DNA of 64,000 nt from positions 1 through 64,000 of the forward strand of contig CALDHM010000005.1 of the NCBI GenBank assembly GCA_937941455.1, read 5' to 3'. This DNA is from an uncultured Pirellulaceae bacterium (lineage in GTDB: Bacteria > Planctomycetota > Planctomycetia > Pirellulales > Pirellulaceae). The notes beneath the pieces are model-generated. The model did no database searches. It saw only the letters and a program-made list of their open reading frames with translations, and had not been told where the DNA came from. A program made the position numbers and the translations under genes. Positions 32,629-35,420 of this stretch are shown here, piece after piece (position 1 is the first letter of the stretch; each line of letters begins with the position of its first letter).

Positions 32629-33193
32629 TCTTGCACCTCCTGCGCGAATCCACTTCGCCGCGATTGGGGTTGTGATGAGACGCCGTGGGCAAACGTGCAA
32701 ATGGGACCACTATCGTTGGATCACCAGGCATTTGCATTGCGTTGCCGCGACGCGCTGGACCTACCTGCGGGCTCTCGCGATGTATCCTGAGAATCCTCGA
32801 GTCGCCTGCAGGTGACACCGCCATCCGTGGCGGTTTGTTGGTCTTAATAAAATCTTCGACAAAAAAAAGTCGCAGGATTTAGGAAACCTGATAAAGGAGG
32901 GTGATTTTGTGAAGCTGTAACGGTTGGAACGAACAAACGGCCACGTTTTTGCAAAATTTTTGGGAAAATTCGATGAATCGACGGGGCGAGATTTCTTCGA
33001 CTCTCCGCCCCTCGAGCGTTGGCCCTCACGGCGGGAGAGGGGAGCGGCCTCTTTCGCCGCCAAGCGACACGAGGTGAGGAAGTCGATCCGTCGAGATCCC
33101 CGCAGTAAGGGGGAGCGATATCACGAGCGACGTGGCAATCTCAGGCGGCTGGCCGCCCAAGTGTCGTGATCGGGCCTCGAAAAAAAATTCAAG
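32629..33193. other. Intergenic region with hairpins and an isolated strong ribosome site
   Basis: About 565 bases without a supported gene. On the + strand: hairpin ACCGCC/GGCGGT (32817-32834) followed by TTGTT; an imperfect stem around an A-run (about 32846-32880); and AAAGGAGGGTGA (32893-32904), a near-perfect 16S match, five bases before GTG-AAG-CTG-TAA. No longer frame follows. A G-rich stretch is at 33100-33115. Confidence 0.45.
33180..33193 (-). terminator. selC: T-run after the selenocysteine tRNA
   Basis: Eight consecutive T on the minus strand (33180-33187) lie seven bases after the tRNA discriminator base. No separate strong hairpin precedes it; the tRNA itself supplies structure. 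Confidence 0.4.
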
Positions 33194-33290
33194 CGGAAGT
33201 GAATGGGAATCGAACCCACCGGCCTCACGTTTTACGTAAAGCCCAACGGCTTTGAAGGCCGCGCCGAGCACCAGCTCAAGGAGCACTTCC
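33194..33290 (-). tRNA. selC: Selenocysteine tRNA (anticodon UCA)
   Basis: The minus strand folds as a bacterial tRNA-Sec of 97 bases. The acceptor stem is GGAAGTG with CACTTCC, followed by discriminator G; an eighth pair, typical of tRNA-Sec, would be C with U here and so is mismatched. The D arm has six pairs closing a four-base loop (TTGAGC TGGT GCTCGG). The anticodon loop is CTTCAAA, giving UCA at the anticodon, on a CGGC/GCCG stem. The long variable arm pairs GGCTTTACG with CGTGAGGCC. The T arm is GTGGG TTCGATT CCCAT. CCA is not encoded. A run of eight T follows on the minus strand (33180-33187) and may terminate transcription. No selA, selB or selD is in the window. Confidence 0.9.
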
Positions 33291-34061
33291 CAATTTCAAG
33301 GTGTATCGTGCCGGCTCACCCGCTGAGGCTGGCCCCGGAAACGCCGGAGCAAGAATCGAAATTGCTCGACGTAAGTCCTCAGCACAATCTCCAAATATAA
33401 ACGACCTCTCGTGGCCGTCCAATGACTTGGTCATCGCATGGGGCTTTGTCGACGTCGAATCACCGGAACGGCCGATAGGCGGGGACTGAAACGTACAGCG
33501 GTTATTGTCGGACCTAGTTCCTAGTGGCCAGCGATTTGCTGGCTGGAATGCGAGTACGGATTCCATCGAGGCGGAGCACGCAGGTTCGAATCGGCTTGCA
33601 ACGATTATGCCGGTTGCTGGCGGGATTCGATTGGGGATCCGAGAAAAAAACGGCACTTCGAGGAAGTGTTCGGCCGGAACATGCCCTAGCGTTCTGGTGT
33701 GCACCCCTTGGCTTACGACATCGGAGTTTTAATCCGTGTTTGACGCACATCAACTCGATGACGAGTGGTTGCGACCCGTCCGGAACCGCTTGATTCCACG
33801 GCGGGTATGGCGGGGCACTAGGAGGGCATTGACCATTCACGTATAGTCCGGCAAATGTCAGTTTTTCAAGAAATTCGGAAAATTTTGTCTTTCCGTCGTT
33901 CTCATCGGCTTGTACTGTGGTACACTGACTGCTTGGCTTTATCTGGGATGGGCGTCACTAAGCGGTTTTAAGGGGGGTGTTTGCGGCATAGCCTGATTCC
34001 TACCGCATCGATCATTTCTCAACCGATCATTTTTCAGTTGCAGCAAAGAGGAGTTCGTTTC
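33291..34061. other. Intergenic region without a supported gene
   Basis: About 770 bases between selC and the metalloprotease. Open frames on both strands (for example 33276-33704 minus) overlap the tRNA or lack ribosome sites and motifs. GGTTCGAATC near 33583 looks like a T loop but has no matching tRNA arms. The promoter and leader of the protease gene should lie at about 33900-34060. Confidence 0.5.
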
Positions 34062-35420
34062 ATGCAATCAATTCGCCATTGCGGCAGTTTGTTCGTGGCC
34101 CTGGCCTTGCTTGTCTCAAGTAGCCTCTGGGCGCAACCTGTCGCTCCATCATTGAGTAGCCGTCCCGGGGCAGCCTACACGCTGTATTTGAACTTCACAG
34201 GTTTCCAATTCACAGGGACTTGGGGTAACTCTGGACAAACTCCGGGAACCATGTCCGCCTTTCGAGATAGGACCTCTGGAAGTTTTACGGCGTCTGAGGC
34301 GGCAGAGATCAAAAATATTTGGTCGCGGGTCGCCGAGGCGTATTACATGTACAACATTAATGTGACGACGGTTGACCCCGCGGTCTCTGTCGGCGGATTG
34401 GCACCTTCGAATTATTCCGGTCGCCAACTTTGGTACGACAATACGCCGCGCGTCATGCACGCGGTGATTGGCACTCCATCAAACTCAGGATTTTTCAGTG
34501 GGGCTGGCGGGGTGTCCTACGTAAACGTTTGGCAGAACTCATACTCGGGTACTGGAACGACCAACGGTTTAAAAACCAACTGGACGTTCTCGAATCGGCT
34601 AGGTGGTTACGGTGCGTTCCACAATCAATTTACTGCAGCGACCCACGAGGTCGGACACGCTGCAGGATTGAGCCACCAAGGGGATTACATAGGAGCCACC
34701 CAAGTCAATGAATATTCGACAAATAACGGATCCTCGACTTTGAGGCCAATAATGGGGGTAGGGTACAGCTCGACTCGAAACGCTTGGGCAGTGGGCCGCA
34801 TCAATACCAACACATCGGTAATACAAAATGATGCCTTGCGAATTCGGCAGAATTCCGGAATGGGTGGATTCATTAACGATGGGATCGGACGGAGCATTGC
34901 ACAAGCCACTCCGCTGCAATTGGGCAACGGCCAGATTCTGCCGCTCCTCAATCGAGGGGTTATTGTACCGGCCAGCGATACTAATCCCAATCCGATCGGA
35001 ACCAATAATTACACGAAAGGCTATTTCTCCTTCACCACGTTCGGGGGAGTTAACACGATCACGGTCAATGCTGGTACCCAGTTCATCACGCCTGGCGTTG
35101 CCGATCCACACCGTTCGCTGGATGCCACTCTACGGATTTTAGATAGCCTTGGGAATCAAGTCGCGATTTCGAGTACCTCAAGCCTGAGCGAGACGATTTC
35201 GATCAATTTAGCGCCTGGTCTGTACTACATCGAAGTGTCGAGTGCCGGCGGCAAAAATGCGAGCCTAGGCCCCAGTGGCAACTGGGAGCCGCGTCAGTTT
35301 TACGACATGGGCGCTTATTTCCTGACGGGTACGATATTGGCCGTCCCCGAACCGTCGGGAGCGTGCCTACTGTGTGTGCTAATTTCGAGCGTAATGTTCG
35401 TTCGCCGCCGTGCGAAGTAA
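34062..35420 (+). CDS. Secreted metzincin-like metalloprotease with PEP-CTERM anchor
   Basis: A 452-residue exported protein. The N-terminus is a signal peptide (CGSLFVALALLVSSSLWAQ). The zinc-binding motif HEVGHAAGLSHQGD fits HExxHxxGxxH of metzincins, at about residue 200. The C-terminal 120 residues resemble a beta-sandwich domain of secreted proteases (SLDATLRILDSLGNQVAISS, LAPGLYYIEVSSAG). It ends with a PEP-CTERM sorting signal: VPEPSGACLLCVLISSVMFV followed by RRRAK. Expected at the outer surface after processing by an exosortase. The ATG at 34062 is preceded by AAGAGGAG. Thr, Asn and Ser are common and codons are richer in A/T than in neighbours. A strong terminator follows. Confidence 0.85.
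   Translation: MQSIRHCGSLFVALALLVSSSLWAQPVAPSLSSRPGAAYTLYLNFTGFQFTGTWGNSGQTPGTMSAFRDRTSGSFTASEAAEIKNIWSRVAEAYYMYNINVTTVDPAVSVGGLAPSNYSGRQLWYDNTPRVMHAVIGTPSNSGFFSGAGGVSYVNVWQNSYSGTGTTNGLKTNWTFSNRLGGYGAFHNQFTAATHEVGHAAGLSHQGDYIGATQVNEYSTNNGSSTLRPIMGVGYSSTRNAWAVGRINTNTSVIQNDALRIRQNSGMGGFINDGIGRSIAQATPLQLGNGQILPLLNRGVIVPASDTNPNPIGTNNYTKGYFSFTTFGGVNTITVNAGTQFITPGVADPHRSLDATLRILDSLGNQVAISSTSSLSETISINLAPGLYYIEVSSAGGKNASLGPSGNWEPRQFYDMGAYFLTGTILAVPEPSGACLLCVLISSVMFVRRRAK

Follow-up and report, generated by a model that had tools for sequence, protein, structure and literature searches.

Does a selenocysteine transfer RNA (tRNA-Sec) whose eighth acceptor pair cannot form still belong to a working system for decoding selenocysteine (Sec), and is that pair as firmly kept in this kind of tRNA as its usual drawing implies? 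Both questions are raised by the tRNA-Sec gene (selC) located on a 64,000-nucleotide (nt) stretch of DNA from an uncultured Pirellulaceae bacterium, which lies on contig C5 of the genome and is referred to here as the window. In this tRNA the first seven acceptor pairs are followed by a C facing a U. We consider with high confidence that this bacterial gene is functional and that it serves a complete Sec-decoding system in an organism that is probably a planctomycete. It belongs to a known kind and is ordinary within it, and the looseness of pair 8 is the sole point of specialist interest.

The tRNA-Sec gene and the selenocysteine machinery of its genome

ARAGORN reports a single tRNA in the window, a tRNA-SeC with the anticodon tca at 33193-33290 on the minus strand, the low end of which lies one base beyond the gene's own end at 33194. 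The bacterial tRNA-Sec model of Rfam, RF01852, matches 33195-33290 on the same strand over its entire length (model positions 1-91 of 91) and scores 70.7 bits (E 1.9e-12) against a gathering score of 47 bits. The genome holds 12 matches to this model, and only the window tRNA-Sec exceeds the family cut-off; the other 11 score 43.6 bits or less and look like other tRNAs. An earlier sequence-only reading had identified the gene by its anatomy (UCA anticodon, six-pair D stem, four-base loop, long variable arm) and proposed a covariance-model search as a check. ARAGORN, RF01852 and the fold all agree with that identification.

The folding energy of the tRNA is -44.1 kcal/mol; relative to dinucleotide shuffles z is -3.41, and 1 of 200 shuffles was equal or better. 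All six pairs of the D stem are formed, two of them being U·G, and they close a UGGU loop of four bases; the variable arm has 10 pairs in the minimum free energy (MFE) fold, the UCA anticodon and G73 are both present, and 3 nt link the eight acceptor nucleotides to the D stem. The genomic sequence continues with CTT after G73, so the CCA tail is absent from the gene. The acceptor strands GGAAGUGC and UCACUUCC form standard pairs at positions 1-7 and then bring C and U together at layer 8, and the Watson-Crick eighth pair that the 8/5 drawing implies, which is not defining in practice, is missing. Eight residues lead from the five-pair T stem to G73 and eight residues oppose them on the 5′ side; therefore, the 13-layer length (8 + 5) of the acceptor/T arm is preserved. 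The MFE fold has seven acceptor pairs, leaves C 33283 unpaired and joins U 33202 to a G in a wobble pair, by which the T stem grows to six pairs.

A sequencing or assembly error that turned G into U could be suspected behind the mismatch, considering that the source genome (G000), 4.04 Mb in size and about 96% complete, is a 77-contig draft. However, the sibling genome G413 carries the same base at the same layer, and there too the trypsin and transaldolase genes are neighbours of the tRNA. The recurrence of C·U in a separate genome leads us to reject the error, which we find scarcely credible, and the mismatch noticed in the sequence-only reading is real. Of the 97 positions of the tRNA-Sec gene, 6 differ between the two genomes. 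These differences alter three pairs, located in the variable arm, all of which are still paired, one of them via a double change. The 300-nt flanks have diverged much more, with identity in 87 of 180 columns of one alignment and in 79 of 163 of the other.

The Sec-decoding gene set of the genome is complete, with selA, selB, selD and selC all present. SelA is encoded on contig C10 (564.4 bits to TIGR00474, cut-off 267.9), SelB on contig C8 (335.4 bits to TIGR00475, cut-off 242.25) and SelD on contig C73 (370.3 bits to TIGR00476, cut-off 125), the last with one in-frame TGA. None of the genome searches for these three proteins found a match on the contig of the tRNA, and the earlier remark that no partner gene is near holds. 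A comparable dispersal is described in a passage of PMC4807772, according to which the planctomycete P1 has a full Sec-insertion gene set whose genes are not co-localised.

In-frame UGA codons at the expected Sec/Cys site were found in four genes. SelD reads SYASCAGUASKL, where U is aligned with the AGC cysteine of the solved SelD 3u0o. The SelW/T/H protein has 76 residues, includes EYCGQUNYLPRA with U aligned with the second Cys of the CxxC of 3dex, and exceeds the cut-offs of NF041051 (92.9 bits, cut-off 88) and TIGR02174 (58.6 bits, cut-off 34.2). On contig C7, a SelL-related redox protein with HLGUPPC scores 169.9 bits to NF040769 (cut-off 120), and its U corresponds in the alignment to the leading Cys of the CPPC of 3kcm. 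A second protein of C7, with GYTUPPF, has 'deiodinase family protein' as its best family, and in the alignment its U stands opposite the first TlpA-motif Cys. The search of the genome for such genes covered SelD and three other families, and the list of selenoproteins is a minimum. The selD gene (C73, L170 15284) is likely a selenoprotein gene itself, and a truncated annotation is to be expected for it under the standard code. A selenoprotein within the window is not supported: the frame of the AhpC/TSA match on C5 (11347-11697) contains no stop, and the searches for FdhA, SelW and SelD returned nothing on C5, the whole window not having been scanned for UGA read-through.

Because selA, selB and selD are present together with four Sec-type UGA genes, it is very probable that some UGA codons are decoded as selenocysteine in this organism, as had been proposed from the tRNA. 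By analogy with the known pathway, the tRNA-Sec would be charged with serine, SelA would convert the seryl-tRNA using selenophosphate supplied by SelD, and SelB would deliver the product to UGA codons that have a hairpin downstream. We infer that the window tRNA-Sec is expressed, charged and used in decoding along these lines.

The same gene set bears on the idea that the tRNA is a decaying relic that lost its eighth pair through drift. The C·U mismatch, the CCA that is not encoded and the contig on which no sel gene was found would all suit a relic, and the sequence-only reading had named absence of selA, selB and selD as the finding that would make it one. All three genes are present in the genome along with UGA-bearing selenoprotein genes, and the relic is rejected for that reason. 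Moreover, the tRNA has been retained despite its divergence from G413, and the altered pairs are still paired. Taken with the distribution of the mismatch among relatives given below, this makes a relic very improbable.

The eighth acceptor layer in related and distant bacteria

The family set consisted of 241 genomes, 113 of which have tRNA-Sec at 115 loci, and 111 sequences (from 111 of the 113 genomes) were parsed. The unparsed loci are L142, L160, L166 and L167, the last two being second, weaker hits of genomes already counted; stricter filters were applied in searches of over 40 genomes. None of the 777 cells of pairs 1-7 is non-standard, and all seven are paired in 111/111 sequences, a figure that has a built-in floor since the parser demanded at least five of these pairs, as against 73/111 for layer 8. 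Pair 8 is thus non-standard in 38 of 111 family sequences, or in 29 of the 86 distinct ones. The pairs observed are C-G (67), U·C (23), G·A (7), G·G (6), U-A (5), C·U (2) and A-U (1). Within the genus of the window, two of the four parsed tRNA-Secs have C·U, one has C-G and one G·G. Outside the family, pair 8 is non-standard in 22 of 32 sequences of the phylum, which comprise the 30 best-scoring loci and two genomes of the same class (G344 and G315).

The 3-nt linker ahead of the D stem is found in 104 of the 111 parsed family members. Many family members have open outer pairs in the D stem (pair 1 is paired in 21/111, pair 2 in 62 and pair 3 in 108), mostly in tRNAs with the 3-nt linker; among the seven with a 2-nt linker, six have fully paired D stems.

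In the family, tRNA-Sec and a strong SelA largely occur together: both are present in 103 of the 241 genomes and neither in 118, while 10 have the tRNA only and 10 SelA only. Some of these exceptions are drafts that are 66-89% complete, others are more than 90% complete. A strong SelA is present in 35 of 38 genomes with a mismatched pair 8 and in 66 of 73 with a paired one. It had been suggested that the mismatch may affect recognition by SelA or SelB, and no sign of harm is seen in this comparison. That 38 of 111 family members have a mismatch of some kind at this layer, nearly all of them with a strong SelA, also speaks against a decaying relic. Nine low-scoring SelA-like proteins (214-323 bits) were excluded from the count; they occur in G395, G417, G418, G121, G339, G431, G441, G584 and G603, which have no tRNA-Sec at E 1e-9, and their function is possibly another one. 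The genomes with U·C at pair 8 (g271, g317, g295, g306) have best SelA scores of 367-435 bits to PF03841, and nearly all other tRNA-Sec genomes with a SelA hit score 436-502 bits; the U·C genomes may have a separately inherited Sec system.

The comparison was extended to a mixed, non-random bacterial sample of at least 117 loci with the exact conserved motif in named genomes. One locus was unparsed. Another 26 were excluded for an acceptor of a length other than 8 nt, a missing G73, a failure at any of pairs 1-7 or failures at two or more T-stem pairs; some of the 26 are not tRNAs, and some probably represent 7/5 or other forms. The 90 clean sequences are selected for pairing at 1-7 and are therefore informative for pair 8 only. 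All counts for this sample are among the matches listed. Pair 8 is non-standard in 51 of the 90. The bacterial group was assigned from the record title for 64 of them, and the non-standard fraction is 11/15 in Actinomycetota, 8/9 in Bacillota, 5/6 in Acidobacteriota, 3/4 in Chloroflexota, 4/5 in Planctomycetota, 4/5 in other groups, 2/15 in alpha/beta/gamma Proteobacteria and 0/5 in the delta type; it is 14/26 in the sequences without a group. In this small sample, particular mismatches prevail in particular groups: U·C in Actinomycetota (10/15), G·A or G·G in Bacillota (8/9), A·G in Acidobacteriota (4/6) and G·G in Chloroflexota (3/4). The alpha/beta/gamma Proteobacteria mostly retain the pair (13/15). 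The sequence-only reading had taken the eighth pair to be normally kept in tRNA-Sec, and the counts from the family, the phylum and the mixed sample contradict it. No statement that a non-Watson-Crick pair 8 is common in tRNA-Sec was found in the literature searched; it may still be in print.

Is any pairing preference left at layer 8? Shuffles of the pair-8 columns, which ignore the relatedness of the sequences, give two answers depending on the treatment of G-U. With G-U allowed, pairing does not exceed the shuffled level: 57 of the 86 distinct family sequences are paired against a mean of 54.8 (1341 of 5000 shuffles reach or exceed the observed value), and 39 of 90 are paired in the mixed sample against 33.9 (703 of 5000). 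With Watson-Crick pairs only, the numbers are 57/86 against 40.4 and 38/90 against 22.1, and 0 of 5000 shuffles reach the observed value in either set. The Watson-Crick excess argues that layer 8 retains some preference for pairing and has not lost all constraint.

The MFE fold of the window tRNA-Sec draws a different solution, a 7/6 variant in which the U of the mismatch is paired with the G immediately preceding the T stem; 13 pairs are kept in this way, and one is moved from the acceptor to the T stem. Of the 111 family sequences, 110 have that G, and 25 of the 38 family mismatches could form the additional pair, an enrichment that is partly built in, considering that G pairs with C or U and not with the G of the usual C-G. 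However, the shift offers no rescue for the 13 other family mismatches, for 19 of 22 in the other sequences of the phylum, or for 31 of 51 in the mixed sample (it is possible in 20 of 51, among the matches listed). As a general rule the 7/6 variant is rejected on account of these unrescued mismatches, and we consider it unlikely; the C·U and U·C forms could be particular cases of it.

We prefer to regard layer 8 as a stacked layer of an arm whose length is kept. The C·U would lie at layer 8 of the 13-layer acceptor/T stack, adjoining the T stem, stacked and not Watson-Crick paired, and would preserve the length of the arm, a SelB determinant, at the cost of one Watson-Crick pair. Passages in PMC7609411 and PMC4607533 give acceptor-stem length as the determinant for SelB of E. 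coli, and a passage in PMC7609411 states for tRNAs generally that an occasional acceptor mismatch leaves the helix undisrupted. Length, not pairing, would then be what matters at layer 8. A broader proposal is put forward tentatively, and we would rate it slightly below an even chance: in many bacterial phyla layer 8 is not kept Watson-Crick, SelA and SelB read a stacked arm of 13 layers, and the 8/5 drawing over-states the pairing. The difference between pairs 1-7 and layer 8 within the family offers a simple way to test how the tRNA is measured by the Sec factors.

Several observations weigh against a functional tRNA-Sec in a complete system. First, 10 of the 113 tRNA-Sec genomes of the family have no strong SelA hit. 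Second, among the products of the UGA genes, the deiodinase-like protein stays under its family cut-off (91.8 against 250 bits), and the hairpins 3′ of the UGAs, drawn in single MFE folds, are candidate selenocysteine insertion sequence (SECIS) elements. Third, the FdhA-family protein, which scores above its cut-off, has no in-frame stop and carries Cys in the motif that we take to be the Sec site; formate dehydrogenase is rejected as the selenoprotein on that evidence. The draft state of G000 also counts here. Finally, none of 11 window proteins matched the tRNA-bearing contigs of the genus members G412 (14.9 kb) and G415 (9.3 kb). We retain the functional reading with these points in view. 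The apparent oddity of a mismatched tRNA is removed when the tRNA is seen as part of a complete Sec system, and UGA codons in this genome should therefore be annotated with care.

Features of the locus and comparison with known systems

Coordinates of the tRNA-Sec gene, its parts and an upstream match in the window
Feature	Position	Strand	Remarks
tRNA-Sec gene (selC)	33194..33290	minus	nt 1 = 33290, G73 = 33194; CCA tail not encoded
Acceptor 5′ strand GGAAGUGC	33283..33290	minus	base 8 = C at 33283
Acceptor 3′ strand UCACUUCC	33195..33202	minus	U 33202 opposite C 33283 = C·U layer
D arm	33264..33279	minus	UUGAGC/GCUCGG six-pair stem, UGGU loop
Anticodon UCA	33253..33255	minus	ARAGORN
Long variable arm	33221..33243	minus	MFE fold and comparison with sibling G413
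T arm per MFE fold	33202..33220	minus	GUGGG/CCCAU five pairs plus optional G·U 33220/33202
Weak promoter-like match	33394..33421	minus	about 100 bases upstream of the tRNA; 1 in 501 bases against 0.2 expected (shuffles)

A terminator scan at the tRNA-Sec gene found none. The neighbouring trypsin, transaldolase and Gfo/Idh genes are kept in G413, with 84, 74 and 85% protein identity, respectively; among the other family loci tested, whose flanks are short, the neighbourhood was not found. Beside the tRNA, at 33981-35420 on the plus strand, a protein is encoded that has a PEP-CTERM-like tail as judged by eye, and its sole Pfam match (PPC) and sole NCBIfam match (T9SS sorting domain) both lie just below the cut-off. 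The selA contig C10 also encodes a DUF1559-domain protein (157.2 bits) with the H-X9-DG C-terminal motif; DUF1559 and H-X9-DG proteins are abundant in planctomycetes, which makes a planctomycete the probable source. Against plasmid records, SelB finds its best match in Sinorhizobium at 35.6% identity, which is uninformative as to the placement of the organism.

Three known systems invite comparison. According to PMC4807772, the planctomycete systems P1 and P2 likewise have full Sec-insertion gene sets, and the genes of P1 are scattered as they are here. The formate dehydrogenase of P1 and the formylmethanofuran dehydrogenase subunits of P2 are given there among the putative selenoproteins, whereas the FdhA-family protein of our genome is stop-free in frame. 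With the bacterial tRNA-Sec described by RF01852, the window tRNA shares the UCA anticodon, the six-pair D stem with its four-base loop, the long variable arm, G73 and the 8 nt between T stem and G73. It differs in the C·U of layer 8 and in the 3-nt linker, both of which recur in the family (a non-standard layer 8 in 38 and the linker in 104 of 111). With the 7/5 variants of tRNA-Sec, described for Epsilonproteobacteria, the Cloacimonetes type and others in passages of PMC5330540 and PMC4607533, it shares the seven acceptor pairs. Unlike these variants, however, the window tRNA-Sec keeps eight acceptor residues and therefore an arm of 8/5 length that contains one mismatch.
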